Part shown: positions 1-18,345 of the stretch, piece after piece
Numbering within the stretch: position 1 is the stretch's first letter
Layout: each line of letters begins with the position of its first letter
Source of the DNA: a virus
DNA length: 24,335 bases
Strand: one strand, 5' to 3'
Virus record (IMG/VR): IMGVR_UViG_3300022725_000049
Location: 1-24,335 of that record
Made by a program: the position numbers and the translations under genes
The notes under the pieces: model-generated
What the model saw: only the letters and a program-made list of their open reading frames with translations
The model's database searches: none
Told to the model about the DNA's origin: nothing

Positions 1-1829
1 GTTCCGACAGACGTAAGATGGCTTGGTGGGTTCTGAGCCAGTGAATAAAGCTCTTTAACAATTCTGTTTTCAAGTGTGAAATATCTTCGGAATCCAAATA
101 GATTCTCGATATATTCGGCAGGTTCGGACCAGTATACCTCAGTACCGACACCTCCTGGTTGACGCATTGAGCAGAACTTTTGTTGGGTTTCTTCTCGTTT
201 TTTGGCAACATCTGGGAACATCTCACTTAAGCGTTTAGAAGCTTCCTGAATATCCTCAAGGTTTTTATTAAGAGTCTCAGCTTGCTTCCTTTCCTGACCG
301 CCATACATCCAAGCAAAGTCAGTATTCTTTACACGTACATACTCATCTACATCCTTGATTATTTCTTGAGCATTCTCACCATGCCAGACTTCAGCCATGA
401 TCTTATGGAACTTGAATTCTCCATATTCTCGTTTGGACTCAATCAGGGCATTGGTTAGATTATCATCCCCATAGATGGCTGCTAAGATGACGACTTCAAA
501 TGCCTCAAAGTCGCCTCCGTCAAGTACTTCACCATCTGCTGACATTCTGAAAAGATTGCGGATGGTAGGAGTTCTGGGTATACCTTGGGGATTGATGGAT
601 TCCCTTGCTGCTTCATCTCCTCCTCCAGCCATTCGATTCGACTTAGTTCCGATGATTTTAAAATCCGGATGGAATCTTCCAGATACAGTATAGAGGTACT
701 TGAGTTTCTCAACAATATCCAGTCTTTTTTCCGCAGAGCGTGCCTTGCTAACCTTTTCAGCAGCCTTTGATAAGTCAGGAGATCCTGATCGTATAAGATT
801 CTCGAGGACGGCTTTTGATGTATTAGTAATCTCAGGTTTTTCAATGTCAGTAGCGTGTGTAAGTAAGTAGCGTTTGGCATTGTTAGGAGATCGCGGAGCA
901 ATCTCTTTTTCGTCTTCGTATTTAGTAATAGCATTACTTGGATCATTGAGTTGAAATCCTCTCCATCTGGAATTAGCGATGGCTATAGTAAGATTACTAT
1001 CAATGTCGCCTGGTGTGGGCTTGTCAAATTTTGAATATAGCTTAGACAGCAGTTCAACATCCCGAGCAGCATAGTGCCGAGCGGTTGAGTTATTAGACCA
1101 TACACCTATATGATAATAGATATGACAATACCAGTCAGATCCATAGGGCCGCCATGAAACTTCATCAGGCATACGTTCTTTAGGTATTACAAACTCACCC
1201 TTTCCCTCACCAAGGACTTCCTGACATAAGGCTTCTAATGAGGTACTTGGTCTGAAGCGTAGGACTATATCACTGAAATCGCCGTCAGTACCGTCGGTGC
1301 TGACTACATCCCAGCGATAACCAAGTGTAGATTTTGCAAAGTGGATTGCTGAGATATCAATGTTATTCTTGAGTATATCAGCAAGTGGGTAGGCTAATAC
1401 TGTAGGCACTTTACGTATGCGTATATCCTTACGGGACATAGCAGTCTGGTATTTATCCCGTCGTGCTATGAGCATAAGATCACAGGCATTAGGTGGTTTA
1501 AGTACCCACTTATTGCAATATGGCTCAATGGTCTTAACACTTTCTGGAGATGGAGATGAATCAATAACACCTCCATAATCCCGTAAAGCTCGTAAGATAT
1601 TATATATCTTAACGATGTGGAACCAATCAAAAGCTAGGTTGAATCCTACAATATTATACCGAGTCAATTCCTCAATGAGCATGAGAGTCTTATTGACAGG
1701 TTCCTTGAAGATCTCATGCAGGTATATTGGACCACTAGTGGTACCATCGTCGTCAGCATACTGATATTGTAGGAGGACCATAGGTCCTGTAAATCCGCAT
1801 GTCTCAGTGTCTAGGTATATTATACTCAT
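1..1829 (-). CDS. Family A DNA polymerase with 3'-5' exonuclease (C-terminus outside window)
   Basis: Replicative phage DNA polymerase; 609 residues are visible and the frame is open to the window edge. The proofreading exonuclease is at the N-terminus: Exo I is D7-x-E9 in YLDTETCGF, Exo II is D68 in GFNLAFDWF, Exo III is Y253-x3-D257 in HYAARDVELL. The polymerase domain follows, with the pre-motif-A stretch around SINPQGIPR-T-TIRNLF (411-427), motif A D440-x4-E445 in GDFEAFEVVILA, and motif B K501-x3-F505-x3-YG in VKNTDFAWMYGG. The arginine expected four residues before the motif B lysine is displaced (R499). Motif C (HDE) should lie beyond position 1. The start ATG overlaps the stop of the upstream small gene (ATGA), so translation is probably coupled; there is no good Shine-Dalgarno of its own. 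Two quasi-palindromes (1284-1304, 1731-1742) sit in frame and code for STDGTDG-like and DGTTSG linkers. Confidence 0.93.
   Translation of the reverse strand, partial: MSIIYLDTETCGFTGPMVLLQYQYADDDGTTSGPIYLHEIFKEPVNKTLMLIEELTRYNIVGFNLAFDWFHIVKIYNILRALRDYGGVIDSSPSPESVKTIEPYCNKWVLKPPNACDLMLIARRDKYQTAMSRKDIRIRKVPTVLAYPLADILKNNIDISAIHFAKSTLGYRWDVVSTDGTDGDFSDIVLRFRPSTSLEALCQEVLGEGKGEFVIPKERMPDEVSWRPYGSDWYCHIYYHIGVWSNNSTARHYAARDVELLSKLYSKFDKPTPGDIDSNLTIAIANSRWRGFQLNDPSNAITKYEDEKEIAPRSPNNAKRYLLTHATDIEKPEITNTSKAVLENLIRSGSPDLSKAAEKVSKARSAEKRLDIVEKLKYLYTVSGRFHPDFKIIGTKSNRMAGGGDEAARESINPQGIPRTPTIRNLFRMSADGEVLDGGDFEAFEVVILAAIYGDDNLTNALIESKREYGEFKFHKIMAEVWHGENAQEIIKDVDEYVRVKNTDFAWMYGGQERKQAETLNKNLEDIQEASKRLSEMFPDVAKKREETQQKFCSMRQPGGVGTEVYWSEPAEYIENLFGFRRYFTLENRIVKELYSLAQNPPSHLTSVG
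1284..1304. repeat. Quasi-palindrome inside the DNA polymerase gene
   Basis: Arms GTCAGTACCG (1284-1293) and CGGTGCTGAC (1295-1304) are inverted copies with one mismatch around a central T. It codes in frame for a Ser/Thr-Asp-Gly linker in the exonuclease part. A second, perfect 12-bp palindrome ACCACTAGTGGT is at 1731-1742 in the same gene. Confidence 0.8.
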
Positions 1830-1999
1830 GGAAGTTTCGCCCCGGTTGACTTATCTGACTTACGTAACTTACAGATGTAGTCAAGGATGAGACAATATAT
1901 CATAACAACAGCTATCCCAATAGCAAGTGGTGGTGGATTATATTCTATAAAATATAAGTAGACTATAATGGTGATTGCATACACGAAAATACTATGCAT
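1826..1999 (-). CDS. Small two-helix membrane protein
   Basis: 57 residues. Two hydrophobic segments are visible, roughly residues 3-18 and 24-41, joined by a short NPPP turn, followed by a basic tail (CKLRKSDKSTGAKLP). I chose ATG at 1999 rather than the longer open frame because a GGAGG sits eight bases upstream and the longer version would overlap its neighbour out of frame by more than 100 bases. It overlaps the stop of the upstream gene by a few bases and its own stop overlaps the polymerase start (ATGA), so it is in the replication operon. Function unknown; a small phage inner-membrane protein is all that can be said. Confidence 0.65.
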   Translation of the reverse strand: MHSIFVYAITIIVYLYFIEYNPPPLAIGIAVVMIYCLILDYICKLRKSDKSTGAKLP

Positions 2000-2198
2000 G
2001 TTCACAGCCTCCATAGAAGAAGTGATGTCTATCATGCTTAATATACTTATGAATTCTAGACGTTGTATCCAACCCAGTGTATATTGATGAATCAGTATCA
2101 AACTCTAGGTTGACCTCATCAACATCGGAATCTATAATGATGAATGAACCATCAATAGGGCCTCCATAGAATTCAATAACTACTTCGCGTTGGTTCAT
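1992..2198 (-). CDS. Small hypothetical phage protein with GGPIDG motif
   Basis: 68 residues starting MNQREVVIEFYGGPIDG. The N-terminal GGP-(I/L/F)-DG strand-turn followed by an acidic segment and a C-terminal aromatic FFYGG is reminiscent of widespread small phage proteins of unknown function whose sequence begins with a GGPxDG motif and ends in a Y/F-x-G strand. The start at 2198 is chosen because it forms an ATGA overlap with the stop of the upstream gene; an ATG 36 bases further upstream would extend the overlap without a better ribosome site. Function unknown. Confidence 0.6.
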   Translation of the reverse strand: MNQREVVIEFYGGPIDGSFIIIDSDVDEVNLEFDTDSSIYTGLDTTSRIHKYIKHDRHHFFYGGCEHA

Positions 2199-2515
2199 GG
2201 CGTTGGCTCGTTGAATTGCTTGTAGTAATTCCATAGATCCAATTCACCGCTGGTAAAAAACTCATTATCTTCAGGAGTTTCCCCTGCGGGAAGTCGTTCC
2301 TTTTTATAATTAAGGTGAGGTTGTAAAGCATCACTGATTTGATACATCAGTATTACGGTCTCATCCTCTGTGTAAAAATGTTTATCCCCTGAGGCTGAGG
2401 CCCTGCGGGACTTACGAAACTCTGCATTGCAATATGAGCACTCCTGTTCAAAAGAGAATACCGGCAGTGTGCATTTTGGGCAGTGATGGGTCACTCTGGC
2501 GATTAGAATTCTCAT
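2195..2515 (-). CDS. Small zinc-ribbon protein
   Basis: 106 residues. Two CxxC knuckles, CPKC (residues 12-15) and CSYC (residues 27-30), are spaced as in a rubredoxin-type zinc ribbon near the N-terminus. The rest is acidic and of unknown fold. Its start lies 68 bases inside the end of the upstream gene, and its stop overlaps the next start by ATGA. Zinc ribbons of this size in phage replication operons may bind nucleic acid or host RNA polymerase, but nothing specific can be assigned here. Confidence 0.65.
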   Translation of the reverse strand: MRILIARVTHHCPKCTLPVFSFEQECSYCNAEFRKSRRASASGDKHFYTEDETVILMYQISDALQPHLNYKKERLPAGETPEDNEFFTSGELDLWNYYKQFNEPTP

Positions 2516-2921
2516 TTAGCTGTCTCTCATAATGGATTATAAAGTATTTAGCAGCCTGCATTGGTGTATAGTTACTTGATATGTACTCATTAATACCATG
2601 AGAAACCCAGTAAATGTTTTTATACTGGGACAATGATAAGTAACTATTTTCTTTTTTCTTTGGCATTATCAATTGCCATGCTTCCCTCCACTTTTCTGGT
2701 ATTTCACTTATGTGAGCGGGAAAATCTATATCAGCATTATTTCTTAAGTATGCACGCAGGGCACGAGCAGTACGAGTGATGTTATCAGTATATATACTAC
2801 ATGTAGTATATGTAGTATATATACTACATGTACTACCCATCACCTGAACAAGATCATCCTCAAACAGATGACAGGATGCTGGAGAAATACTTAAGATGCT
2901 GAATGGTAATGCAATGTTCAT
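2448..2921 (-). CDS. Hypothetical protein with palindromic repeat insert
   Basis: 157 residues, not recognised. Residues 28-48 are encoded by an AT-only nested palindrome (2788-2836) giving alternating Ser/Thr/Ile/Tyr/Cys, unlike the rest. The remainder looks alpha-helical (TARALRAYLR, IPEKWREAWQLI, AAKYFIIHYERQL). The start overlaps the previous stop by one base (TAATG). An alternative start is the methionine at residue 28 immediately before the repeat. The last 68 bases overlap the zinc-ribbon gene. Confidence 0.55.
   Translation of the reverse strand: MNIALPFSILSISPASCHLFEDDLVQVMGSTCSIYTTYTTCSIYTDNITRTARALRAYLRNNADIDFPAHISEIPEKWREAWQLIMPKKKENSYLSLSQYKNIYWVSHGINEYISSNYTPMQAAKYFIIHYERQLNENSNRQSDPSLPKMHTAGILF
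2788..2836. repeat. Nested TACTACATGTAGTA palindromes within a gene
   Basis: A run built from TGTAGTATA-type 9-base units in both orientations, including a perfect 14-bp palindrome TACTACATGTAGTA (2796-2809). It keeps the surrounding reading frame open. Confidence 0.8.
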
Positions 2922-3172
2922 TAGTTAAGCTTTTGCCATCTGTGGGAATGACGAGGATAGATGCTCATATTATTATCCCCATGAACAATGATGCTTTGAC
3001 CATCCTTGCGAGAATGCTTATTGGGTGGAAGAACGGCTACTACCATATAAGTCCCAATCATGTTTTTGGAATAACTATCTTGTTCCCCAATGTATCGGAG
3101 AATTGATCCAATCTCAAAGGGTGCCGGTTCCAGAGTGATGGTGGTAGATTCCTGAATTTGTTCTGCAGTCAT
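2921..3172 (-). CDS. Hypothetical protein
   Basis: 83 residues, not recognised. Predicted beta-rich by eye (STTITLEPAPF, GSILRYIG, IGTYMVVAVLPP, QSIIVHG), suggesting a small barrel. The start at 3172 has an AAGGAAG seven bases upstream, only 12 bases after the end of the helicase gene, so it is co-transcribed with it. The stop overlaps the next start by one base. Confidence 0.6.
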   Translation of the reverse strand: MTAEQIQESTTITLEPAPFEIGSILRYIGEQDSYSKNMIGTYMVVAVLPPNKHSRKDGQSIIVHGDNNMSIYPRHSHRWQKLN

Positions 3173-3184
3173 CTTAGGACTTCC

Positions 3185-5095
3185 TTATGATACATAACTC
3201 AACATTGTCTTGTCCAACGCAGACAAAACTTCCCCCATCGTTAGGGATTGAAGTGTTCGTTTCTTCTGTAGATTATCCAAGATATATTCATCAATGGGTA
3301 AGTGGATGAGATCAATGATGTTGGCAGACTCACCCATTCCAATACGATGAATACGATCTTCAGATTGGATTCTGTTTTCAGCATTGAAAGAATTACTATA
3401 ATACACAATGGTATCACTAGCATGTAGCGTAATTCCCATGCTTGCACTATCAGCAGTAGCAACAAAGGCTATAGGTACATCTAGATCCTTACTTTGAAAC
3501 TGTTCCTGTGTTGGATTGGTACTAGTGATACGGAAGGAACCTGTATCATAGCCTTTCCATCGGCTAGTGGTGCCGCTGGTGGTACCAGTGGTACCACTAC
3601 TCAAAATTACATTCCAGCCATTATCAACACATAGATCCTTGACTTTTTCTGCAGATGCTATGAAACCTGTATAGATAACTATACGATACTTATCATTACT
3701 TAAAAAGTTATTCAGTATATCAAGAAGTGCGTCATCCTTTGGACACTTGAATAACTGAGTTCGCTTGTCAGATGGTATACTTTCTATGTAGTCTGTGATA
3801 CCATCGCCAGTGTCATCGGTGCTGTTATATCTAAACCCATCAGATATCTGACGGATCTTTGTCATTGCTTCAACGACTGTAGTTGAATTTTCAGTAATGA
3901 GCCTAGCCAAGGACAGTATGTCGTTGGTGCAGCCTGTGCGGAGTCTGGTATACGTTTTAGGTGGAAGATCAAGGCAGTCAATTTTTCGTTTGATCAGTGT
4001 GATTGGTTTAAGACGTTTATACAATCTAGTGATTTCGTCTGACTTCCACTGATTAATAACCAGATACTGGCCACCATATTGACCAGCCTCTGTTTGAGTA
4101 TCAGCAAGAGACCTTAAAAGTTTCCTGGGGGAATTCTCCCTAAGAAGACCAGGGAAAACTATTTCACTTTGAGCCCACCAATCTGTGGGATTTTTAGGAC
4201 TGGGAGAACCAGACATTAGGACTATGTATCCGTCCCAGCCCCACTGGTTGAATTGGTGGGCTTCGATCTGTGCAAGAACCTTGGTTCTGCTTGCATTGAT
4301 GTTCTTGAACTTTGTTGACTCATCAACAATGAGCACCTGGGGTGGGGATGATTTTCGTGCAATTCTCTTGAGAGCCTGCACAGAAGAAGGAACAAAGGTT
4401 ATATGATAACCTGTATAGTTCCACTTCTTAATCTCATAACGCCAAGCCATCAACGCTGAATGAGGAGCAATGATCCATACATCACCGAGTAACTGTCCTA
4501 TTTTCTCGAGATGCTCAATTAGTTTAAGGATTACTAAGGATTTTCCAAGGCCCATTTCATACCCGATTAATGCTCGATGAGTATGAAGGATGAACTGTAG
4601 CATCTCATACTGATGTTTCATGAGCATGCTAGTGTTACTAGTGTTACTAGTGTTACTAGTGTTATCTATAAGATTATTATAATATTCTTTAGCCCGTCTA
4701 TAAAGAAAGTTTATACCCCCCGGTGCATCAGGGTGCAGTGAACCAGGCATTTCGCCGTTAGTGAACAGTCCGAATAAGACTTGATTTCGTCTGCTGGTGC
4801 CGGCACCATTGGTGCCAGCCACTGTCCAAGTTTTAGACTCAGGACGCCATCTTGCTTTTTCAAGTTGGCGTACCATATCTAGCAACTGTTTGTTGTAGGG
4901 AAACCTCAATTCTAGGAAGGGCATACCGGAATTCATGTACGGCATAACTTCCACAGACACCTTTGTGCTGTGTGAACAGGTATAACTAGGTGGTAGGATG
5001 AAGTCTATGTTGTTCATAAAACTGTAACTCAGGTTTCCCTGAGTTACAGTGTATACAGTGTATACACTGTATACACTGTATACACTATATTTCAT
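3185..5095 (-). CDS. SNF2-family DNA helicase/translocase with HARP-like N-terminus
   Basis: About 636 residues. Numbering from the alternative GTG three codons upstream (5104): Walker A is GYEMGLGKS (181-189), the Walker B/motif II equivalent is VDEST (260-264), motif III is MSGSPSPKN (297-305), motif V lies in SMGITLHASDTIVYYS, and motif VI is QSEDRIHRIG (580-589), the last matching the SNF2 QxxDRxHRIGQ pattern. The segment LRFPYNKQLLDMVRQL-x-KARWRPESKTWTV (66-95) resembles the HARP domain that precedes the helicase core in SMARCAL1-like enzymes, which anneal or remodel forked DNA. Likely role: DNA remodelling in phage replication or recombination. Start is uncertain: ATG 5095 has GGTGA five bases upstream; GTG 5104 has none; ATG 5017 lies directly after a strong hairpin and would exclude the Tyr-Val-Ser repeat. 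Three in-frame low-complexity inserts (NTS x4, SGTT, AGTNGAGTS) interrupt the family sequence. Confidence 0.9.
   Translation of the reverse strand: MKYSVYSVYSVYTVYTVTQGNLSYSFMNNIDFILPPSYTCSHSTKVSVEVMPYMNSGMPFLELRFPYNKQLLDMVRQLEKARWRPESKTWTVAGTNGAGTSRRNQVLFGLFTNGEMPGSLHPDAPGGINFLYRRAKEYYNNLIDNTSNTSNTSNTSMLMKHQYEMLQFILHTHRALIGYEMGLGKSLVILKLIEHLEKIGQLLGDVWIIAPHSALMAWRYEIKKWNYTGYHITFVPSSVQALKRIARKSSPPQVLIVDESTKFKNINASRTKVLAQIEAHQFNQWGWDGYIVLMSGSPSPKNPTDWWAQSEIVFPGLLRENSPRKLLRSLADTQTEAGQYGGQYLVINQWKSDEITRLYKRLKPITLIKRKIDCLDLPPKTYTRLRTGCTNDILSLARLITENSTTVVEAMTKIRQISDGFRYNSTDDTGDGITDYIESIPSDKRTQLFKCPKDDALLDILNNFLSNDKYRIVIYTGFIASAEKVKDLCVDNGWNVILSSGTTGTTSGTTSRWKGYDTGSFRITSTNPTQEQFQSKDLDVPIAFVATADSASMGITLHASDTIVYYSNSFNAENRIQSEDRIHRIGMGESANIIDLIHLPIDEYILDNLQKKRTLQSLTMGEVLSALDKTMLSYVS
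3579..3597. repeat. Palindromic insert in helicase gene (GTGGTACC arms)
   Basis: Arms GTGGTACC (3579-3586) and GGTACCAC (3590-3597) with loop AGT. Together with the flanking GTGGTGCC it codes for the Ser-Gly-Thr-Thr repeat in the second helicase lobe. Confidence 0.8.
4629..4664. repeat. 4 x 9-bp tandem repeat in helicase gene (NTS repeats)
   Basis: Four perfect copies of CTAGTGTTA, each containing the palindrome ACTAGT across junctions. Encodes (Asn-Thr-Ser)4 between the HARP-like part and the helicase core. The 9-base unit keeps the frame. Confidence 0.9.
4796..4816. repeat. GGTGCC/GGCACC palindrome in helicase gene
   Basis: Perfect 12-bp palindrome GGTGCCGGCACC (4796-4807), ATT, then another GGTGCC (4811-4816). 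Encodes the in-frame Gly/Thr/Ala linker AGTNGAGTS just after the HARP-like segment. Confidence 0.8.
5021..5050 (-). promoter_or_regulatory. Perfect 13-bp GAAA-tetraloop hairpin at helicase 5' end
   Basis: Arms 5021-5033 and 5038-5050 are perfect inverted copies (ACTGTAACTCAGG / CCTGAGTTACAGT on the minus strand). On the minus-strand transcript the four-base loop is GAAA, a GNRA tetraloop, so an RNA hairpin should be very stable. It ends three bases before an in-frame ATG at 5017 and could gate translation of a shorter helicase form. Function is inferred. Confidence 0.6.
5051..5086. repeat. 4 x 9-bp GTATAC repeat at helicase N-terminus
   Basis: GTATACAGT followed by three copies of GTATACACT. 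Each unit contains the palindrome GTATAC, and the whole block is nearly self-complementary. If translated it gives a (Tyr-Ser/Thr-Val)n N-terminal tail on the helicase; if the helicase starts at 5017 it is untranslated leader. Confidence 0.9.
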
Positions 5096-5609
5096 TCCTC
5101 TCACCCGGCAAAGTCGGGTAAGTAAAATGAGGAATGGGGAACAATAAATCCTTAACAGTTACTTGGGGATCATACTCCTGAAACCGTCTTAGGGAATAGT
5201 GTTCCGGGTCGATCTCATGTAGCAATCCCTTCATGAAATTTAGGGTGATTTTTGGCCAGCCACGCTTAGCATCTTCATCCATGTTTTCCCAGAATTGGAG
5301 TGGAAGATGGTCGATGAGGTAATCAACATGCTCGAAGATGCGTTTGAATGCCGGTGACTTTGGATGATTCTCATACAAGGTACTGATGTATGAGTATAGT
5401 AACAGTAGTAGGGGATCATCCGTAAGACTTCGAGTCCATAAATATACGGATTCTACGTTACGATTCAGTCTAATAGGATTCATTCTGAGGAACAGGTAAT
5501 ATGCTGATTGCATAGAATAAGCCCGTTCTTTGTTTCGTAGAATACGTGCGCAGTGCTCGAAGTTATTGAAGGGGATGAAAGTTAAAAAAGGATATAAATT
5601 GTATTCCAT
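5085..5609 (-). CDS. Hypothetical protein, weak likeness to pyrimidine-dimer glycosylase-type phage proteins
   Basis: 174 residues, helical, basic and aromatic-rich. The stretch IPFNNFEHCARIL-NKERAYSMQ, then ENHPKSPAFKRIFEHVDYLI, then DPEHYS near the C-terminus loosely follows the order of motifs in a family annotated as pyrimidine dimer DNA glycosylases (N-x-S-Arg-x-Leu ... NHP-x3-W ... DPxHY), but the match is partial and key residues cannot be verified by eye. The start ATG is formed at the edge of the 17-bp iteron array and has no Shine-Dalgarno. Its end overlaps the helicase start by about 11-20 bases, suggesting coupled translation. Confidence 0.55.
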   Translation of the reverse strand: MEYNLYPFLTFIPFNNFEHCARILRNKERAYSMQSAYYLFLRMNPIRLNRNVESVYLWTRSLTDDPLLLLLYSYISTLYENHPKSPAFKRIFEHVDYLIDHLPLQFWENMDEDAKRGWPKITLNFMKGLLHEIDPEHYSLRRFQEYDPQVTVKDLLFPIPHFTYPTLPGERNEI

Positions 5610-5676
5610 AATAGATATACTTATGTAATAGATATACTTATGTAATAGATATACTTATGTAATAGATATACTTATG
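5609..5676. repeat. 4 x 17-bp perfect direct repeats (iterons)
   Basis: Four identical head-to-tail copies of TAATAGATATACTTATG (plus strand), at 5609-5625, 5626-5642, 5643-5659 and 5660-5676. They fill exactly the gap between the stop of the 5679 gene and the start of the 5085-5609 gene. The unit is not a multiple of three and contains TATA-like sequence. Candidates are a protein-binding iteron array for replication or partition, or an operator. Confidence 0.92.
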
Positions 5677-5678
5677 TA

Positions 5679-6398
5679 TTACCGTTCAAAGTCGTCCTGT
5701 GTCTCAGGTGCACTGGGTACACTGGGTACACTGGGTGTACCCGTCCCTTGAAAAGCTTCAACATCAGGCTTGATATGTTCGAGGAACTCTGCTTTACTTT
5801 CAAACTTACTATCAAGTTCCGTAATCAATGCAGGTGTAGAGACTTTATTAGTAATGTACCACTGAAAGTTCTTGCGTGAAACAAGCTGTGAAACCAATTT
5901 GAATCCCTGTCCCTGCTCATCAGGGAGAAAAGAATTCTGTCGATTGGTCTTAGCAAACAGGAATGTTGCACACATATGCAGTTCAGGAAGATACAGCAGC
6001 CATTTCGGACCGTGGATATACTGATTCATTTCATCAGATACCCTTGAGAGATCCTTTTGTCTGATGTCCTTAAAGGCTTGTGAGTTTGGATCACTGGTGG
6101 AAGCGATCAGTGAGCCACTCTGGATATGCATAGCAAAGGGTTGCCATACAATGGGAACTACAGAAATCTCAGCGAATCCCTCCTTAGGTGCTTTACCAGT
6201 GAGTTTAGAAATGGGTGTGTTATCATTATACAGGTAAAACTCACCAGGTCGTACCAGCTGATCCTGCACAGGTTTAGACATAAACTGTGCTAGGACGATG
6301 ATAGGAGTCAAACCACCACCCTGAGTAGTGTCTTTGAATAGTTCTAATTCTGTTTCTTTATCGGTTTTATTGAAAATATCAAGTTCCGTGTTTGTCAT
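5679..6398 (-). CDS. Conserved-type phage protein, possible ssDNA-binding or recombination accessory protein
   Basis: 239 residues. The order of features, a loop-rich acidic N-terminus, then LTPIIVLAQFMSKPVQDQL and RPGEFYLYN, then a strand EISVVPIVWQ, a central mixed region and a disordered acidic Pro/Ser C-terminal tail (PSVPSVPSAPETQDDFER), is similar to uncharacterised phage proteins found beside replication and recombination genes. An acidic, flexible C-terminus is typical of single-stranded DNA-binding proteins, but no OB-fold motif can be shown here. It overlaps the ParB-like stop by ATGA. The tail contains a palindromic 9-base repeat (5711-5742). Confidence 0.6.
   Translation of the reverse strand: MTNTELDIFNKTDKETELELFKDTTQGGGLTPIIVLAQFMSKPVQDQLVRPGEFYLYNDNTPISKLTGKAPKEGFAEISVVPIVWQPFAMHIQSGSLIASTSDPNSQAFKDIRQKDLSRVSDEMNQYIHGPKWLLYLPELHMCATFLFAKTNRQNSFLPDEQGQGFKLVSQLVSRKNFQWYITNKVSTPALITELDSKFESKAEFLEHIKPDVEAFQGTGTPSVPSVPSAPETQDDFER
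5711..5742. repeat. 9-bp repeat with GTAC palindrome, encoding VPS repeats
   Basis: Repeats of ACTGGGTAC; the last two copies form an inverted repeat GGGTACAC (5724-5731), TGG, GTGTACCC (5735-5742). Encodes Val-Pro-Ser repeats in the C-terminal tail of the upstream-listed protein without breaking frame. Confidence 0.85.
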
Positions 6399-7438
6399 TT
6401 AAGTGCCTCTGCAAGTTCCTGACTATCCTCAGTGAGAATATCCGTGGACTTATTCTTGGGAAGCAACTGTTTCAGGACTCGATTACCAGGATCTTGCTCA
6501 TCCTTTTCGCGTTCCTTAGCCAGCCGCTTCTCAGCTTTCTCACGTTCCCGAACCTCATGCTCTTGAAGTTGCTGTTTCAGACTTTCATCATCAAGGCACA
6601 AGGCATAACGGATACCATCATAGTATCCCATCTTGTATTCGGGTGAATCTAGATTTACAGCCTCAGGGTTGACGTCTTTGATCTGCTTATATTGCTGCTC
6701 GAATACAGGAAGCAGTTCAGTTTTCTTGCGAATCTTAGCTCGAGGTTGAAAGGTAGGGCCATTGCCGGCACCAGTGCCGCGAGAGGACTGATTTCTTCTG
6801 ATTTCACGAAGACGATCACTGACCTTTGTCATGAAATCCTCAGTCTTGAGATTCTGAGCATCGTCGATGTAGGCTTCCTGCTCCTCTATGGGGAGTCTAG
6901 CAATGTAGATTAGGTTGGACAGCTTGATATGTCCCTGGTTTGCGAGTTCCTGAACCCGCTCGTGAGAGTTAGCAATCTTCAATTGAGATTGAATCCAGCT
7001 TACGCTCATATTGAAACGGTCTGACCAGTATTCCAGTGATTTTTCAGGATGCTCGAATACAAGTACGCGAATCTGCTTCGCATACTCTGCAGGTTTAGTT
7101 TCTACCTTATGGACATTAGCAGCAATCTGCATTTCCATGATCTCCTGTTTCAGGAGATACGGATCAGCAGCAGTTTCTTCGTCAAAGGTAATTACCTGCA
7201 ACGGGATTTCAGTAAGACCACATTCCTTTGCAGCCTCAAAGCGATGACCTCCGTCAATAATGACATAGGTATCTCTGACTTTTCGAGCAATAGGAGTATT
7301 AAGGATACCTCGTTTCTTGATATCCTCCACAAAGTATTGCCAGCGTTCATCCGCCTTATCAGGGTTGCGAAGATACACTGTATCAATGGTAACATTGTCA
7401 ATAGGGACTAAGATGTTCTCTCGTTTGATGATTGGCAT
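6395..7438 (-). CDS. ParB/Spo0J-like DNA-binding protein
   Basis: 347 residues. N-terminal ParB domain: RNPDK (24-28), box II-like DGGHRFEAAKE (62-72) in place of GERRxRAA, and box III-like ANVHKVETKPAEYA (107-120). A helix-turn-helix follows at about 138-155 (YWSDRFNMSVSWIQSQLK). The C-terminal third is a highly charged coiled coil (REREKAEKRLAKEREKD). ParB-fold proteins bind specific palindromes, and the fold can bind CTP or carry nuclease activity; which applies here is unknown. The GGHR version of box II suggests a phage branch rather than a chromosomal segregation ParB. No ParA is present in the window. Strong AAGGAG six bases before the ATG. A Gly/Thr/Asn insert encoded by a small hairpin (6763-6779) follows the HTH. 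Confidence 0.85.
   Translation of the reverse strand: MPIIKRENILVPIDNVTIDTVYLRNPDKADERWQYFVEDIKKRGILNTPIARKVRDTYVIIDGGHRFEAAKECGLTEIPLQVITFDEETAADPYLLKQEIMEMQIAANVHKVETKPAEYAKQIRVLVFEHPEKSLEYWSDRFNMSVSWIQSQLKIANSHERVQELANQGHIKLSNLIYIARLPIEEQEAYIDDAQNLKTEDFMTKVSDRLREIRRNQSSRGTGAGNGPTFQPRAKIRKKTELLPVFEQQYKQIKDVNPEAVNLDSPEYKMGYYDGIRYALCLDDESLKQQLQEHEVREREKAEKRLAKEREKDEQDPGNRVLKQLLPKNKSTDILTEDSQELAEALK
6763..6779. repeat. TGCCGGCA palindrome and hairpin in ParB-like gene
   Basis: TGCCGGCA (6763-6770) overlaps a hairpin CGGCA (6766-6770), CCAG, TGCCG (6775-6779). Encodes the in-frame linker RGTGAGNGP. Confidence 0.7.
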
Positions 7439-7758
7439 GTTTGACTCCTTGTTCTAAGTAGATGAGACCAGTTCCGATGGAAATCTTTTAGTGCATCAAT
7501 ATCCTCCTTTTCTATTAAATCTGTTACAACTTGTATATTCTTTTTACCCTGTTCAGTGTTGGGATCAAAGACAACAGGGTAAAAGTTTTCAAGCGTTTGA
7601 AGGCACCTCATGATATCTACCAGATGTCGATACTTCTGGAAAGATATCTTGAAGTGCCTTTGGGCATTAAGAAACTCTGGAGTTACAGTCCAGAGTGTAT
7701 TCTCGATGAGATGTCTTTGTTCTTCTCGTAACTGATTATAATCTATAAGCTCAGTCAT
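7408..7758 (-). CDS. Hypothetical protein, first gene of the replication operon
   Basis: 116 residues, not recognised. Predicted mainly helical (YNQLREEQRHLIENTL, YRHLVDIMRCLQTLENF, KKNIQVVTDLIEKEDIDALKDF). No membrane segment. It is the first gene after a strong promoter at 7795-7823 and its leader would be only about 30 bases, without a clear Shine-Dalgarno. The last 31 bases overlap the ParB-like gene in another frame. Confidence 0.65.
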   Translation of the reverse strand: MTELIDYNQLREEQRHLIENTLWTVTPEFLNAQRHFKISFQKYRHLVDIMRCLQTLENFYPVVFDPNTEQGKKNIQVVTDLIEKEDIDALKDFHRNWSHLLRTRSQTCQSSNERTS

Positions 7759-7794
7759 ACTTTAATCTCGGTACTTACACCGCGTGTTCATTAT

Positions 7795-7823
7795 ATTATA
7801 TGCGACTACATTGTTGAAGTCAA
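7795..7823 (-). promoter_or_regulatory. Near-consensus sigma-70 promoter for the replication operon
   Basis: On the minus strand, TTGACT (7823-7818), a 17-base spacer and TATAAT (7800-7795): a 5/6 and a 6/6 match at ideal spacing, about 37 bases upstream of the first ATG at 7758. This is the strongest promoter seen by eye in the window. Confidence 0.85.
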
Positions 7824-7826
7824 CAA
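7811..7826. promoter_or_regulatory. Palindromic operator overlapping the -35 box
   Basis: TTGTTGA-AG-TCAACAA, perfect 7-bp arms, covers the -35 element. Further TATGTTG/GTTGA half-sites follow at 7829-7857, so a repressor or activator could bind cooperatively. Function is inferred from position. Confidence 0.6.
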
Positions 7827-8029
7827 CTATGTTGTAACTATGTTGATATTGTTGACTGTGTTTGAATTATCATAACAGTGTAACAGTGTAATAGAAGAAT
7901 ATAGCAGAAGTAGCAGAAGGTAGAAATGGGGTAGCGTCGGGTAGCCGAAATGTATATACGAACTTAGAACCGCGTAGTCGCATATAGAAATGCCCATCGA
8001 ATCTTAGGTGAAAAATTTTTTGAGAATGT

Positions 8030-9840: not shown

Positions 9841-9844
9841 TTCA

Positions 9845-10383: not shown

Positions 10384-11007
10384 TTACGCATCCTGCTCCT
10401 GATATTCGTCTTTCGCGATCTGGGACCAGTCAATCGGTTTAAGGATGGGCCGATGAGTGTTGGGATCGAATTCCGGTCCGGGAAAGTAGCGTTTGATGAA
10501 GATACTGGATCCCAAGCGATTCCAGGCATTCAGGCACAGTTTCCGGATCATCTTTTCGTTCTCGGGGACGTTGTCGGGATGAGTCAATTTCGAGATATCC
10601 CCATCCGGATCCAGGCGACGGGGATCGTCTTTACGCCAGACGGCCGACGTAACGGGTTCCTCGTAGGGAGATTCGTTGAGGCGCCCCTCGTTGACCGTCT
10701 CGAAGTACGTCTCAAGAGCAACGGTGGCAGCCTGTTCCCAGACGTTCCACGTTGACGGATTCCGCCAATTGGCAGTAAATTCGCCAAAATGGCGACGGCA
10801 GCAGGGGTTGCCGGTAAGGCGGCGGTAGAAGAATTCCGCAACCACGAGATGCTCCTTGTTCCGCATGGTATCTTCATCCCCGCGAAGGGAACCGTAAGCA
10901 CATGCGGCGATGGTGGCAATCTTCCAATTTCGATCGCCTCTCGAGGTTGCTGTAACCTGCCGAGCGGTCGCAGCATTGATATTGATATCGAAATTCGGGG
11001 TTTCCAT
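10384..11007 (-). CDS. Hypothetical protein, GC-richer than its neighbours
   Basis: 207 residues, not recognised. Start at 11007 is preceded by GAAAGGGA; it is the first gene of the minus arm after the divergent control region. Notable are CCRRHFGEF and several Trp/Pro-rich loops (NWRNPSTWNVWEQAA, SAVWRKDDPRRLDPDGD). No membrane segment. Base composition is visibly higher in G+C (third positions included) than the rest of the phage, suggesting a different history, for example recent acquisition. Being next to the control region it may be expressed early, which is inference. Confidence 0.65.
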   Translation of the reverse strand: METPNFDININAATARQVTATSRGDRNWKIATIAACAYGSLRGDEDTMRNKEHLVVAEFFYRRLTGNPCCRRHFGEFTANWRNPSTWNVWEQAATVALETYFETVNEGRLNESPYEEPVTSAVWRKDDPRRLDPDGDISKLTHPDNVPENEKMIRKLCLNAWNRLGSSIFIKRYFPGPEFDPNTHRPILKPIDWSQIAKDEYQEQDA

Positions 11008-11752
11008 GATGATATCCCTTTCTCTGTAGTGTACGAAGGTGTACGGGTGAGAAAGCAATATCGGGGGCCGAATAGGATATCGCCTATTAGATATTCAATT
11101 ATCAAAGAGCGTTCGGCATGGAAGCCGTGTTGGGCGTTATGGATGAGCTCGGTCAAGTCAGCCAATCCGAATTGATCCGATCGCCTTACACGTTGCAATC
11201 TTCGTGCCAACCGATGGAAATTCCGGGAAATTGTTGATACCGGGCCGGAATCGCCGCTTTTGTGATAATGTACGATCGTTTATCATATTGATATCATGCC
11301 ATTTTGGCATATTTTGACAATATGGCAGTGTCATAATGACATGCGAATATTCACCGAACAGATTGAAAAAGTAACTGATTAGTTACTATCAGTATATAGA
11401 TATAATGAATTGTCTTGTCCAAGACCATGACAAGGCGTTTCCGGGCTTAAGGTACGTCAATATCATGAAGGTGCTTAATGATATCGAGAGGTCATAATGT
11501 CTTATCAATTCAACAGTGATTATATTATATCATAATCTATTATCATGAAGGTGCTTAATGATATCGAGCGATCATAATATATTATCAAGTCATGAGTCAA
11601 TGATAACGAGCAATCATAATATATTATCATGAAGCGAGATGATAAGTGATAATTGGGGGTCAGGGGGGTATTGGAGTCCCGGACAGCGATGGATCCTATA
11701 AATGGGTGGTATGGCAGTCAGGAACCGATTTTTAGTTTTTGGGAGATCTATC
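11008..11752. promoter_or_regulatory. Divergent control region between minus and plus arms
   Basis: No convincing gene in 745 bases. Palindromes: ATGCCA-TTT-TGGCAT (11296-11310), TGTCATAATGACA (11329-11341) and the hairpin GTAACT-GATT-AGTTAC (11371-11386). TTGACA at 11314-11319 has no good -10 at normal spacing. A TATAAT at 11401-11406 is the best plus-strand -10, with only a weak -35 (TTAGTT, 16-base spacing) inside the hairpin. TTATCA/TGATAA elements recur throughout, and a ~47-bp unit is repeated (listed separately). The region should hold promoters for both arms and could hold the packaging start, being just upstream of the terminase genes. Confidence 0.6.
11461..11629. repeat. ~47-bp direct repeat, two strong copies and a degenerate third
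   Basis: Copies at 11461-11507 and 11541-11587 share TATCATGAAGGTGCTTAATG and ATATCGAG and the TCATAAT...TTATCA end, with four differences. A third, shorter copy is at 11588-11629 and a further TATCATGAAG at 11626. Noncoding. The period between the first two copies is 80 bases. Confidence 0.85.
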
Positions 11753-12244
11753 ATGAAACGAGTCACGCCCTTAATGCTGTTCCTTATCCTATTGGCTTTC
11801 ATGAATGTTTCCTGTGAGAAGCAAATTGCTGAGTTAAAGTTACGAAGTCAGCAAATAAAATTGGAAACTGATCAGGTAATTAAAGATATCAAGGAACAGG
11901 GATTCTTAACCCCTGAACAGGTTTTGAAACTGGATGAACTAAATGTAAAATATAATAGGATAAATGATAAGATAAATAACATCGAGACTCTCTGGGACAT
12001 CGGCGATATGATTGTTGCCACCGTGGCCACTGGAACTCCTGTATCACTTGTATGGGCCATTTTCTCAACCATTGGGAAACGTAAAAAGGAACAACAACGT
12101 CTCACTGAGGAAGAGGACTTCAAAAAGCTTGTTAATAACATTGAACAGGTTAAGGGCGACGGTATCAGTACCACCCTCGACTGGGGTAAGTTGAAGGAAC
12201 TTAATAAGGATATAAACCTTAAGATCCATAAGGCACGGGAGTAA
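11753..12244 (+). CDS. Candidate lipoprotein with coiled coil and a second membrane segment
   Basis: 163 residues. Start at 11753 follows GGGAG by seven bases; a longer frame begins at 11702. The N-terminus has a KR pair, a hydrophobic stretch (residues 7-17) and Cys21 in MNVSC, a non-canonical lipobox (Asn at -3). Residues 22-80 look like a coiled coil. Residues 84-107 are hydrophobic (MIVATVATGTPVSLVWAIF) and followed by GKRKKEQQR, positive-inside. This topology, lipid anchor, helical periplasmic part, inner-membrane helix, resembles a unimolecular spanin, but the periplasmic part is short and the cytoplasmic tail long; superinfection-exclusion lipoprotein is an alternative. First gene of the late operon. 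Confidence 0.65.
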   Translation: MKRVTPLMLFLILLAFMNVSCEKQIAELKLRSQQIKLETDQVIKDIKEQGFLTPEQVLKLDELNVKYNRINDKINNIETLWDIGDMIVATVATGTPVSLVWAIFSTIGKRKKEQQRLTEEEDFKKLVNNIEQVKGDGISTTLDWGKLKELNKDINLKIHKARE

Positions 12245-12660: not shown

Positions 12661-14291
12661 CCACACGACGCGAACAACTTCTCAAAGAGGCTAAACTTCT
12701 CTACGAACGGCAACGTAGGGACAGTGATCCTCTGTATGCTTATAAGCCTTGTTCACACCCCGAGCGTAACCAGTTAGCCTTCCATCAAAGTCGTGCTCGT
12801 ATTCGTTTGGTTACTGGAGGTAACCAATCTGGAAAATCCATCTCTGGGGCAGCGGAGGTAGCCTATACCCTCCTAGGCGTTCACCCCTATCAGCCGACGT
12901 CTCCCTGCCCCAGAATTTTTTGCTTATCTGCTAGTTATCGTACCATTCAGGAAGGCATATGGAGACATCTTGATCCACATTCTCGTATAAACGGCCAAGG
13001 TGCAGGATTCTTATCTGAATCCCAGATTGTAAAACGCGGACCTAATATCCCTGGTTGGCAGATACCTAGTTATATTCAGGTGTATAATAATATTAATACC
13101 GGCGGCAATGCCGCCGGCATAGCACAGTTAGATTTCCTCTCAGCGGAGGGTGGTAAATCTGCCCGGCGTAGACTTCAATCTGCGGCTGTAGATGATTTCT
13201 TCATTGATGAAGAGGTTGAGGAAATCCTTTGGAATGAGATCAACATGCGACTGCTTGTTAAGTCAGGTAGAATCGTAATTACATGTACCCTTGTTGAGAG
13301 TGAACAATATCTTCTAGATATTGAGGAACGCGGTGCCCTTGGGGGCACCGATGCCTCGGTACATCTAACACGGCTTAATACAGACTATAATGAGCATATT
13401 GATGAGGGTGTTCGGGATCAGATATTTTTAGGAATGTCCGATGAGGAACAACAGGTTCGTAGGTATGGATATTCCCGTAGTAGCGAGGGTAGAGTATATA
13501 AGGACTTTGGCAAACAGCATATCTGTGAGCCATTCCCAATTCCTCAGGAGTGGCCCAGGTTCATGGCAATGGATCCAGGCTTTAGAACCTTTGCGGGTCT
13601 GTGGATTGCCATAAATCCTGATACCCTTCGTGCATTTATCTATCGGGAAATGTATCTACACGAAACCGACCTTGAACATGTTGCAAAATTTATTTATAGT
13701 GAAGAGCAAGCACTGTGGGACCCAGTGGAAAGACGAAGAACTATTGGTCCAGATACAGAAATAATTTCCACCAGATGGATTGATAAGTCAGCGTTTTCCC
13801 ATTATACTAGCGGTGAGGTGGGTCCAGGAATTCAGTTAGCATCTAAGTATGATATAATCAGTGTGCCTTCAGATTCCCAGTTACATGGTGGTATTGAAGC
13901 CGTCAAAGGGTGGATGAAACCTGGTTTAGATTCAGAGCCTATGTTAAAGATCTGGAATACACTAAGGAATTTTAAGAATGAAATACGAAAGTATAAATAC
14001 AAAAGGGAGGACTCAACTACTGGACATGATGCAAAGCCGGATCGCCCTATTAAGAAACATGACCACCTTATGGACTGTCTACGATATTTAGCAATGGGCA
14101 TCGTTGGAGTAAACCCAGATATACGAGATATTGTAGAACAAAGTAGAGATAATAACATTAGTGGTATTACTAAATCTTCCCAGTGGGCACAGTCACTTAA
14201 TAAGAGAGCTCAACCCAGTGAGATACAGAAACATGTGGACAAACTTCTAAAAGAGAGGAACCTTACTAATGATCGTTGGACCAGACAATAA
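12657..14291 (+). CDS. terL: Large terminase subunit
   Basis: 544 residues, the DNA packaging motor. ATPase domain: Walker A GGNQSGKS (54-61), Walker B VDDFFIDEE (178-186) with catalytic Glu, coupling motif IVITCT (206-211). Nuclease domain (RNase H-like): D306 in RFMAMDPGF, likely D377 in TRWIDKSA, and D473 in HLMDCLRYLAMG. Length is ordinary for the family and the domains are intact. It overlaps the upstream gene by ATGA and the glycosyltransferase start by 23 bases. Two GC-only hairpins (13099-13117 and 13331-13350) sit in frame in the ATPase part, coding NTGGNAAGI and RGALGGTD, in regions that should be surface loops. Confidence 0.95.
   Translation: MTTRREQLLKEAKLLYERQRRDSDPLYAYKPCSHPERNQLAFHQSRARIRLVTGGNQSGKSISGAAEVAYTLLGVHPYQPTSPCPRIFCLSASYRTIQEGIWRHLDPHSRINGQGAGFLSESQIVKRGPNIPGWQIPSYIQVYNNINTGGNAAGIAQLDFLSAEGGKSARRRLQSAAVDDFFIDEEVEEILWNEINMRLLVKSGRIVITCTLVESEQYLLDIEERGALGGTDASVHLTRLNTDYNEHIDEGVRDQIFLGMSDEEQQVRRYGYSRSSEGRVYKDFGKQHICEPFPIPQEWPRFMAMDPGFRTFAGLWIAINPDTLRAFIYREMYLHETDLEHVAKFIYSEEQALWDPVERRRTIGPDTEIISTRWIDKSAFSHYTSGEVGPGIQLASKYDIISVPSDSQLHGGIEAVKGWMKPGLDSEPMLKIWNTLRNFKNEIRKYKYKREDSTTGHDAKPDRPIKKHDHLMDCLRYLAMGIVGVNPDIRDIVEQSRDNNISGITKSSQWAQSLNKRAQPSEIQKHVDKLLKERNLTNDRWTRQ
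13099..13117. repeat. GC hairpin inside terL (CCGGCGGC arms)
   Basis: Arms CCGGCGGC (13099-13106) and GCCGCCGG (13110-13117), loop AAT. Perfect 8-bp GC stem in an AT-rich gene, in frame. Confidence 0.85.
13331..13350. repeat. GC hairpin inside terL (CGGTGCCC arms)
   Basis: Arms CGGTGCCC (13331-13338) and GGGCACCG (13343-13350), loop TTGG. Perfect 8-bp stem, in frame, encodes part of GALGGTD. Confidence 0.85.
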
Positions 14292-15192
14292 GCCTATCAA
14301 AGGGACTCAGGATGGTACTAGTAAGCCCCCAATAGTTATAGGAGCATTCCTTGTATATAATTCTATCCAGGCACCAACTTTTGAATGTGCTATGAACATT
14401 GCTGGATCTGGCTGTCTAGCTGGTTGGATTGTAGTTCAGAGTGTAATCTTACCTACTGCTCGTAACTTAGCTTTCCAACAGATTTCTGAACACTTTCCCG
14501 ACTATGAATACATTTTATTTATGGATCATGACATGGCGGGAATATCAGAAGTCCATATTGCTAAACTAGTAAAGACAATGAGAGATAATCCCGACATTGG
14601 AGTAATTGCTCCTTTGATGGTTAGGCGTAATCCTCCATTTTCTCCTGTATGTAATCCCATTGATAGCAATGGTAATGGTGTTGCTCAACTATTGTTTGAT
14701 GAACTCAATAAGAGTGATCCAGGATTCATTGAGTGTGAGCACGTTGGTACTGGGGTCATGCTTGTTCGTCGAGAAGTAATCGAGAACACAGCAATTGAAG
14801 TAAATAACTGCGAAGACCCTCATAAAGAGTGGTTTACAATGGATAGGTATCCATACACCTGGCATCCTGATGAAGATATCAAACGACTTCAAGAACTTTA
14901 TCTTAAGGAATTATACAATAATGATAATAATGATAATGGTGATAGGTTGTTTAACAACAAAGACTTCGTAAAACGACTTTATGAAGCATCCCTAGAGGAA
15001 TTTTATTCCCATGATATGCGTGGAGAAGATGTATTCTTCTGTAATCGTGTAAGGGATAAAGGTTATAAGGTGTATGTCCACTGTGGAGTACAGATTGCAC
15101 ACTTAGGACATTTTCCCTTCCACATTGGACATCATATTCAGGAAATGCAGAACGAAGGCAAAATTAAAGTAACACCTAAGGAGATGTCATGA
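14269..15192 (+). CDS. Glycosyltransferase, GT-A fold (family 2-like)
   Basis: 307 residues. LPTARNLAFQQI (61-72), then YILFMDHDMAGIS with the DxD metal/sugar-nucleotide motif D86-H-D88, then IGVIAPLMVRRNPP, VGTGVMLVRREV, and GEDVFFCNRVRDKGYKVYVH with the ED acceptor-site pair and a late histidine (IAHLGH). This is the order seen in phage GT-A glycosyltransferases. The acceptor is unknown: virion protein, modified DNA base or host surface glycan. Located between TerL and portal, where most phages have none, so it is an accessory insertion. A 9-base repeat gives NNDNNDNGD in the variable region. AGAGAGGA precedes the start. Confidence 0.85.
   Translation: MIVGPDNKPIKGTQDGTSKPPIVIGAFLVYNSIQAPTFECAMNIAGSGCLAGWIVVQSVILPTARNLAFQQISEHFPDYEYILFMDHDMAGISEVHIAKLVKTMRDNPDIGVIAPLMVRRNPPFSPVCNPIDSNGNGVAQLLFDELNKSDPGFIECEHVGTGVMLVRREVIENTAIEVNNCEDPHKEWFTMDRYPYTWHPDEDIKRLQELYLKELYNNDNNDNGDRLFNNKDFVKRLYEASLEEFYSHDMRGEDVFFCNRVRDKGYKVYVHCGVQIAHLGHFPFHIGHHIQEMQNEGKIKVTPKEMS
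14917..14943. repeat. 3 x 9-bp repeat in the glycosyltransferase gene
   Basis: AATAATGAT, AATAATGAT, AATGGTGAT; encodes Asn-Asn-Asp, Asn-Asn-Asp, Asn-Gly-Asp in frame. Confidence 0.85.
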
Positions 15193-15791: not shown

Positions 15792-16106
15792 ATGACTATT
15801 ACCGGCAATGGCATTATGGTTATTGGTGCATTTTGCGTAGGATTAACAGTAGGACTTATTACCATGAGTTTCGTTACAATGAAGTATGCTCGATTACTTG
15901 AGAATACTAACATTGTTATTCACTATATCCTACAGGCTATTCATACGCATAATAACATTGAAACGGCTGCTAATAGTAGTAAATACTACAATAAAGAATA
16001 TGGTAATAATAGGTATAATAATAGGTATGGCAGTGCCGATTATTATCCCCAGGATAGAAGTGATGAGTCTGAAGCCATCATTGAGGAATTAAGAACTAAT
16101 GGCTAA
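15792..16106 (+). CDS. Small membrane protein with Asn/Tyr-rich tail
   Basis: 104 residues. Membrane helix at about residues 8-30 (IMVIGAFCVGLTVGLITMSF), a helical segment, then a low-complexity tail rich in Asn, Tyr and Gly and an acidic end. The tail carries a 12-base tandem repeat (16005-16028) encoding Asn-Asn-Arg-Tyr twice. The stop overlaps the portal start. Unknown function; with its upstream neighbour it may form a pair. Confidence 0.6.
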   Translation: MTITGNGIMVIGAFCVGLTVGLITMSFVTMKYARLLENTNIVIHYILQAIHTHNNIETAANSSKYYNKEYGNNRYNNRYGSADYYPQDRSDESEAIIEELRTNG

Positions 16107-18345
16107 AGCACAATCGCAATTGAAGCAATTTGCTAATCAAAATCTCTCTCTTGATATGGATGATGACAAGGCTGTCAATGAGTTCATCAAGAAGGAGTTT
16201 GAGAAACGTAAGACTCGTATGTACGAGTTTATGCGTCAGTGGTATATTCAAATTGCTTTTTTCGCAGGTCATCAGAATCTACGATGGAACAATATCACTA
16301 ATACTCTTGAGGAACCACTTACGCCTACCTGGAGGCAAAGACTTGTAATAAATCTTTTGCAGCCCACTGCTAGAACTACAGTATCAAAATTGATTAAGCA
16401 GCGCCCGTATATTGAGGTGGTTCCTGCAACGGGTGATACAGAAGATATTGTGATTGCCAGTAAAAATAGTAAGATAATGTCCTTTTATTGGGATTATCTT
16501 AATATCGGTTCTAAACTCATTGATGCGTTGTTCTGGATGGTAACTACAGGTAATGGGTTTCTTAAGCCTAGTTGGGATTCAAGTGCAGGTGAATATCTGG
16601 AGATCAGCCCATCGGATCTTCTGACAGCTGAGGATCTGAGTAAAGAATCTCGAGCCCGAGCCTTAAAGCTCTTTAAGAGATATTTTAATATAGAGGATTC
16701 CCAAAAAATTGATATGAAGAAGATTTATAAGCTACCAATTGGGGAGCCTAGATTAGATGTAGTATCACCGTTTGAGATTACACCACCATCTCGCTGTACT
16801 AAGCTGGAAGATGCTCGCTGGCTAATACAATCTAGAGTCTATCACATTGATGAACTCAAAGAAATGTTCGGCCATAATGCTGATGATCTAACTGAAGGAA
16901 CCTTTACTGACTCCGATCTGCAATTAATTTTTGAGGAACGATTGTTGGATCTTACGCCGAGACATGGAGGTTTCCTTGGAGGTACTAATCCTCAACGTAA
17001 GGATTATGTACTTGTTCATGAGTTCTGGCATAAACCTACTCGATATTATCCCGATGGAATTCATTATGTATTTTCCCAGGACAAAGTCCTCAATACTAAT
17101 AATAGAAATCCCTATAACCATAAACTAATTCCTTACGTACATCTTAAGGAAATCCCTGTTCCAGGGAGATTCTGGGGTACGTGTGTTGTTGAACAGTCTA
17201 TGGATATCCAACGGGATTACAATAAGACTAAATCCCAGATATCTGAGAATCGGAATACAATGGTTGGTGGTAAATGGATTGTGCCTAACACATCAGGTAT
17301 ATCGGATGCTCAGATCACCAGTGATCCCTTTGAGATTATTAAATATAATTTTCCTTTCAAGCCCGAATTAGCTAATATGCCTACATTGCCCACATATGTA
17401 GAGCGTACATTGGATTTCAATCGTCGAGATTTGGAGGATATTTCAGGACAACATGAAGTTACCAAAGCCCAAGTTCCTGGACAGGTTAGATCAGGTGCTG
17501 CTATTGCCCAGTTACAGGAAGCAGATGATACACGTCTGGGAACTGTTTCACAGGAAATTGATTTTCAGAGCTCACGAGCGAGCAGAATGCTGCTGAATAA
17601 TATTTCGCAGTTTGTTAAAGAAGAGCGTATTATCCGTATTGTGGGAACAGAAGCTTCATACTCATCCATGAAATTTACGGGTGAAGATCTAACAGGTCAG
17701 AATAATAAGCCCAATGTTTCATACTTTGATGTTAAAGTTAAGATGTTTAGTAGACTTAGTATGTCTCGTTCTTCCCAGTTGAATCTTATAAATACATTCC
17801 TGGAAAGGGGGTTACTCAATCCAGAAACTGATCGTGAACTAGTATTCCACTTAACTGAGTTAGGGGATATTAGTGAAACTGTATCAGGAACCAGAAAGGC
17901 TAAAGCTAAACAACTGAATGAAATTGAGCGTATTGTTCAGGGTGAGACTATTAGTGCAGCATTTTGGGAGTTACATGAAACTCATATACGTACATTACGA
18001 GATTTCATGAACTCTGCTGAGTTTGATAATATGGAGGAAATAACCAAAAATCAAATCATTGAACATTATAAGCAGCATCTTGAGTTACAGGCTCAGGAAC
18101 AAATTTTGCCTGAAATCCTTATGGCTAAGGAAAGTATGGAAGCTAAAGCTCAAATTGAACAGGAATTACAACAGAAAGGTATAAATCCCAATGTCCCAGA
18201 TCAGCAAGGAGCAATCGGAGTACTTGACCAGGGCTTCGCAGGGGGACCAGCCCCCGCAGGGGGACCAGCCCCAGGGCCAACAGGTCCCCCCGCAGGGGGA
18301 CCAGGCTCAGAAGAGACGTATTCGGTACGGAACGCAGGAGTATGA
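16099..18345 (+). CDS. Portal protein
   Basis: 748 residues; the dodecameric head vertex channel for DNA packaging. Recognised by FFAGHQNLRWN near residue 55, WRQRLVINLLQPTARTTVSKLIKQRP (portal clip-to-wing start), DALFWMVTTGNGFLKPSWD, the long DDTRLGTVSQEIDFQSSRASRMLLNNISQFV helix and a helical C-terminal region, all typical of P22/SU10-style portals. Length fits. The last ~35 residues are a Pro/Gly/Ala-rich tail encoded by the GC-rich 18-bp repeats shared with the scaffold gene in another frame. Confidence 0.93.
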   Translation: MAKAQSQLKQFANQNLSLDMDDDKAVNEFIKKEFEKRKTRMYEFMRQWYIQIAFFAGHQNLRWNNITNTLEEPLTPTWRQRLVINLLQPTARTTVSKLIKQRPYIEVVPATGDTEDIVIASKNSKIMSFYWDYLNIGSKLIDALFWMVTTGNGFLKPSWDSSAGEYLEISPSDLLTAEDLSKESRARALKLFKRYFNIEDSQKIDMKKIYKLPIGEPRLDVVSPFEITPPSRCTKLEDARWLIQSRVYHIDELKEMFGHNADDLTEGTFTDSDLQLIFEERLLDLTPRHGGFLGGTNPQRKDYVLVHEFWHKPTRYYPDGIHYVFSQDKVLNTNNRNPYNHKLIPYVHLKEIPVPGRFWGTCVVEQSMDIQRDYNKTKSQISENRNTMVGGKWIVPNTSGISDAQITSDPFEIIKYNFPFKPELANMPTLPTYVERTLDFNRRDLEDISGQHEVTKAQVPGQVRSGAAIAQLQEADDTRLGTVSQEIDFQSSRASRMLLNNISQFVKEERIIRIVGTEASYSSMKFTGEDLTGQNNKPNVSYFDVKVKMFSRLSMSRSSQLNLINTFLERGLLNPETDRELVFHLTELGDISETVSGTRKAKAKQLNEIERIVQGETISAAFWELHETHIRTLRDFMNSAEFDNMEEITKNQIIEHYKQHLELQAQEQILPEILMAKESMEAKAQIEQELQQKGINPNVPDQQGAIGVLDQGFAGGPAPAGGPAPGPTGPPAGGPGSEETYSVRNAGV

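Follow-up and report, generated by a model that had tools for sequence, protein, structure and literature searches.

Short tandem arrays and perfect hairpins are strongly over-represented in a 24,335-base IMG/VR virus record (IMGVR_UViG_3300022725_000049), the whole of which is referred to here as the window. The window is a fragment of an uncultured tailed phage, with genes for a family A DNA polymerase, SNF2-type helicase, ParB-like protein, TerL, and P22-like portal. The arrays within coding sequence are filtered for reading frame, the sites lie in variable loops, and no common element links them. This pattern probably arose by replication slippage together with hairpin-templated strand switching, under selection on frame and position; the molecular events themselves, and the part played by the phage's own polymerase, are inferred. 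The process is already known, and its dense pattern within one phage is unusual.

Tandem arrays were counted as exact tandem runs with at least nine matches inside genes and compared with 100 codon shuffles. The window gave 10 such counts against a mean of 0.83 expected (shuffle maximum, 3), and seven of them had a period of 9, against 0.18 under shuffling. Two of the 10 belong to the helicase leader, and an 18-bp array was scored in each of two overlapping genes. All 7 wholly coding arrays had a period divisible by three, compared with 2 of 7 intergenic or leader arrays (one-sided p 0.010), which is expected from selection against frame shifts if the generator has no preference for three. Filtering for reading frame among the coding arrays is thus supported. 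The initial annotation had described in-frame palindromic and 9-bp repeat inserts scattered through essential genes. Its repeats and palindromes were recovered at or very near the positions given, those in coding sequence keep the frame, and repeat density exceeded both codon-shuffled and synonymous-shuffled nulls.

Perfect hairpins, defined by a stem of at least 8 and a loop of at most 8, were compared in coding sequence with synonymous codon shuffling. There were 13 in the window versus 4.3 expected. The 13 sites named in the initial annotation accounted for six of them, versus 0.48 expected, a number reached in 0 of 200 shuffles. Among 26 contigs or loci, the window ranked third for hairpins observed relative to expectation (ratio 3.5), behind G004 (12.7) and L041 (4.1); the ratio was 0 to 2.7 in most of the set, and nine further loci had no clear hairpin excess. 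Perfect 9-bp stems numbered five in the window (0.9 expected) and 15 in G004 (0.6 expected), an excess above that of stems with one mismatch, and G-U pairs were not favoured over A-C in stems, although numbers were small and arrays contributed to them. The excess of perfect stems and the lack of a G-U preference are more in line with templating at the DNA level than with selected RNA hairpins.

Residue composition was examined by holding the residues fixed, drawing codons from genome usage, and comparing the stem at each site. For these sites, chosen post hoc, the observed stems were rare at TerL 13331 (p<0.001), TerL 13099 (0.002), helicase 3579 (0.008), SSB (0.008), and helicase 4796 (0.011), and were not rare at helicase 4629, the portal, or the glycosyltransferase. 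The palindromes are therefore not explained by amino-acid composition alone.

The clearest case of the set is the 5' end of the helicase gene. A 9-bp array turns into its own inverted copy to form an inverted repeat with 19-bp arms (5048-5086), and a perfect 13-bp hairpin (5021-5050) overlaps it, so that about 66 of the 70 bases examined fall in two overlapping perfect inverted repeats. The initial annotation had placed 5051-5086 inside the helicase and missed the neighbouring 5021-5050 hairpin; the segment falls after the stop codon of the upstream gene and before the conserved start M at 5017. In G001, the nearest relative found, the helicase start codon overlaps the upstream stop codon (TAATG), and the window has about 68 extra bases at this junction. 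The segment may be an untranslated leader (start 5017) or a 26-codon N-terminal extension (ATG 5095), both in frame. Folded as single-stranded DNA it reached -26 kcal/mol, versus -7.9 for shuffles (z -8.6).

Strong predicted folding precisely at a gene junction could also be read as a sign that hairpins are kept by selection as nucleic-acid structures acting in mRNA stability or processing, termination, translational coupling, or as DNA signals, and the distant relative G004 is likewise hairpin-rich in coding sequence. We regard this explanation as improbable. In the sense strand G-U was not preferred to A-C (small numbers), no Rfam match was obtained, and the homologous positions of relatives lack hairpins. 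Within 1-12000, the helicase leader was the one named site that resembled a terminator, and it did so on the strand that does not carry the genes. The analysis gave no evidence of a host-avoidance or regulatory role, either of which had initially been considered possible.

Insert status was determined by alignment with G001 and with G005, a more distant relative, and for the polymerase also with further homologues. G001 (31 kb) has the gene order of the window, with 57% identity in TerL and 49% in the helicase, and its polymerase and ParB copies are frame-shifted in its contig. G005 (46 kb) has 38% identity in the polymerase, and G004, L003, and L005 have about 40% in TerL. Helicase, TerL, ParB, polymerase, major capsid, and portal queries against viral contigs, and a TerL query against bacterial genomes, returned no relative above 57% in TerL. 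The TerL of the window gave a weak Pfam match slightly below the curated cut-off, and homologues back its assignment; the SSB-like, scaffold, and capsid genes were assigned from position and relatives.

In alignments with G001 and G005, the sites occupy variable, gap-rich stretches separating conserved motifs. By this comparison, roughly half of the named sites are true insertions, and the earlier description of them as inserted holds in part. Relative to G001 and/or G005, it stands for polymerase 1731, helicase 3579 (8 residues longer than in G001), helicase 4796, TerL 13331 (2 residues longer than in G001, G005, G004, and L003), the glycosyltransferase (whose array belongs to a 17-residue insertion relative to G001), and the portal tail. 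ParB 6763 is probably an insertion relative to relatives, with the G001 copy frame-shifted. At TerL 13099 the extra length is common to the window and G001, which is longer there, and is absent in G005, G004, and L003; the site is an insert only against these more distant relatives. The helicase 4629 loop equals that of G001 in length and is 5 residues longer than that of G005, an insert only against the latter. Polymerase 1284 is shorter in the window than in all six aligned relatives, and G001 has a longer SSB linker than the window; these two sites, together with helicase 4629 relative to G001, are not insertions. For gene 2448, neither G001 nor G005 offered a homologue. An AlphaFold model of TerL built from five sequences had a mean predicted local distance difference test score of 39, too poor for placing the inserts.

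Repeat and palindrome sites in the window.
Gene or region	Position	Strand	Feature	Remark
DNA polymerase A	1284..1304	-	Imperfect hairpin, one mismatch, 3-nt loop	Variable loop
DNA polymerase A	1728..1745	-	Insertion of 5-6 residues (DDGTTSG) with 12-bp palindrome ACCACTAGTGGT	
Gene 2448	2787..2836	-	9-bp units in both orientations; 16-bp perfect inverted repeat	
SNF2-type helicase	3560..3600	-	Degenerate 9-12-bp GGTACCACT units encoding GTTGTTSGTT; 9-bp hairpin	
SNF2-type helicase	4629..4664	-	Four exact copies of CTAGTGTTA encoding (NTS)n	Variable loop
SNF2-type helicase	4795..4818	-	GGCACC/GGTGCC palindromes encoding AGTNGAGTS	+3 to +6 residues
Helicase 5' leader or N-terminal extension	5021..5086	-	Two overlapping inverted repeats	
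Intergenic, between SSB-like gene and gene 5085	5609..5678	-	17-bp unit array, 4.1 exact copies	Period not a multiple of three
SSB-like protein	5707..5742	-	3.3 copies of GGTACACTG, then an inverted copy (VPS repeats)	C-terminal linker
ParB-like protein	6761..6781	-	Linker RGTGAGNG with GGCAC/GTGCC palindrome	
TerL	13099..13117	+	9-bp GC-rich hairpin	84% GC in 42% flank
TerL	13331..13350	+	8-bp GC-rich hairpin	
Glycosyltransferase-like gene	14917..14943	+	9-bp array AATAATGAT (NND)	Not palindromic
Gene 15792	16004..16028	+	12-bp in-frame array (NNRY)2	Not in the initial annotation
Portal C-tail/scaffold start overlap	18237..18305	+	18-bp array	

The linkers of the window were not shared by its homologues, and shuffled sequence had a much lower density of repeats. 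Relatives carry differing arrays in the same linkers at the SSB and portal sites, which supports an origin by slippage and strand switching. The G001 SSB linker holds a different, 6-bp array encoding (GQ)n. The 18-bp array of the portal tail is translated in two frames where it overlaps the scaffold start (window 18191-18345). In G001 (L028 1567-1679), a different 18-bp unit occupies the portal tail, likewise overlapping the scaffold and read in two frames.

Under the combined mechanism, short sequences, mostly 9-bp units, would be duplicated through replication slippage, which would account for the arrays. Hairpin-templated strand switching would copy one arm onto the other, which would account for the perfect inverted repeats and for the arrays that reverse. 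Selection would purge events that shift the frame or fall in conserved motifs, and the survivors would be multiples of three located in linkers and gene junctions. The result would be lineage-specific, locally generated expansions where proteins tolerate them. The initial annotation had proposed palindrome-templated strand switching with in-frame selection; the frame filter and the perfect stems at the DNA level agree with it, but plain slippage is enough at several sites, and not all sites are inserts.

Several results weigh against the combined mechanism. Palindromy in the arrays did not exceed that of their letter-shuffled versions (combined p 0.59). The tandem-repeat density of the window (6.2 per 10 kb) is high, yet other fetched contigs reach similar values (4.5-6.7 per 10 kb in L025, L040, L041, and L024), the arrays of L040 and L041 being mostly trinucleotide or acidic codon runs. 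The named sites were picked post hoc by the initial annotation, and their p values are after-the-fact. Outside them, stems of at least 8 were not significantly enriched (7 versus 4.0; 22 of 200 shuffles); for stems of at least 7 the excess persists (22 versus 12.2; 1 of 200 shuffles). No close relative was found in the searches described above, so no event was directly observed. Arm divergence gave no sign of one-sided conversion, in a comparison that is uninformative at about 40% nucleotide divergence.

The first of these points also favors pure slippage in Gly/Thr/Ser/Ala/Asn-rich linkers, with the palindromes arising from mutually complementary codons (GGT/ACC, GGC/GCC, AGT/ACT), which we consider somewhat unlikely but the most serious alternative. 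The glycosyltransferase, gene 15792, and 17-bp intergenic arrays are not palindromic, and linker arrays occur in relatives too. Synonymous resampling, however, rarely yielded the stems seen at the five post hoc sites listed above, several palindromic sites have no tandem repeat, and the helicase leader is not readily accommodated. Slippage and palindromy are partly separate signals, since the array units show no palindromy beyond the letter-shuffled level. The earlier statement that units are mostly palindromic was borne out in part, and the arrays at 2787, 5045, and 5711 run on into inverted copies of themselves; it did not extend to the arrays as a class or to the glycosyltransferase.

The sequences differ between sites, as noted initially, with only weak 13-21-nt similarities among them. 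If degenerate mobile palindromic elements of one family had entered the genes in frame, they could have left traces such as the weak 21-nt similarity (71-81%) among helicase 3577, helicase 4798, and ParB 6763. Many inserts are also GC-rich islands (about 60-84% versus 34-46% in flanks), which such a family might explain; a few are AT-rich. The sites share no sequence, length, or target, and a repeat search returned no dispersed family covering them, making this origin very improbable. Rickettsia palindromic elements are one recognizable family of longer elements inserted in frame in genes. They resemble the window in being in-frame palindromic insertions in genes and differ in that each window site is distinct. 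A single mobile element, whether Rickettsia palindromic element-like or a miniature inverted-repeat transposable element, is largely refuted, since no shared element sequence was present at the sites.

G004 (IMGVR_UViG_3300009370_000145; L030 1-20000 and L031) has 38 perfect hairpins versus 3.0 expected (12.7-fold), with 8-11-bp stems, and 12 versus 3.35 in coding sequence under synonymous shuffling. Several lie at conserved protein positions and were formed by substitution, not insertion. Six-base palindromes numbered 63 in G004 against 408 expected (observed/expected, 0.15; 0.32-0.85 in other tested loci), and no close relative of G004 was found. It is conceivable, though doubtful, that some phages of the group continually turn near-palindromes into perfect hairpins genome-wide as they copy their DNA, and that rewriting templated by hairpins is the main route by which their protein loops evolve. 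In that case the window would be a mild example and G004 an extreme one of a trait gained or lost between relatives.

Coding minisatellites arise by slipped-strand mispairing. The window arrays resemble them as exact head-to-tail in-frame units in linkers, but several continue into inverted copies of the unit. Template switching between inverted-repeat arms (quasi-palindrome mutation) is reported to change coding genes in yeast (Saccharomyces cerevisiae) lineages (PMC8604942). The known process homogenizes the arms and produces multinucleotide, multi-residue changes. Perfect short inverted repeats within coding DNA are common to that system and the window, which differs in that its changes are not confined to substitutions but include numerous net insertions and 9-bp arrays. 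The nearest described genome-wide pattern is that of Nematomorpha mitochondria, in which many lineage-specific perfect inverted repeats lie in protein-coding genes and are translated (PMC6649704). Those palindromes are far longer, averaging 43 bp (largest, 142 bp), and conserved residues are encoded by both of their arms, whereas arms in the window span 6-19 bp and mostly fall in variable linkers. Searches of the open literature, which was incompletely covered, turned up no description of a comparable phage pattern. If the templated origin is true, one phage genome records many slippage and strand-switch events that survived in essential genes and offers a natural setting in which to study the building of phage protein loops by replication errors. 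A type of error known mostly from genetic work on model organisms would also be connected with the way replication and packaging proteins evolve in uncultured phages.

Other repeats were observed outside these sites. Long, diverged 42-bp repeats (TATCATGAAGGTGCTTAATGATATCGAGCGATCATAATATAT) occupy a divergent intergenic region at 11461-11634, possibly a control region or origin. In the intergenic segment 7780-8500, CTTAAGCAGAAG words recur (8052, 8197, and 8250) alongside short arrays and a pair of long hairpins (8030-8059 and 8405-8439). GCGC is strongly avoided, with an observed/expected ratio of 0.16 in the window and 0.00-0.08 in G001, G005, L037, and L003, which suggests a shared restriction or modification pressure. 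G001 also carries nearly 4 copies of a 28-bp tandem unit (CGTCCGATAACCTCGCGGGACCAACCAG; L028 8357-8463).

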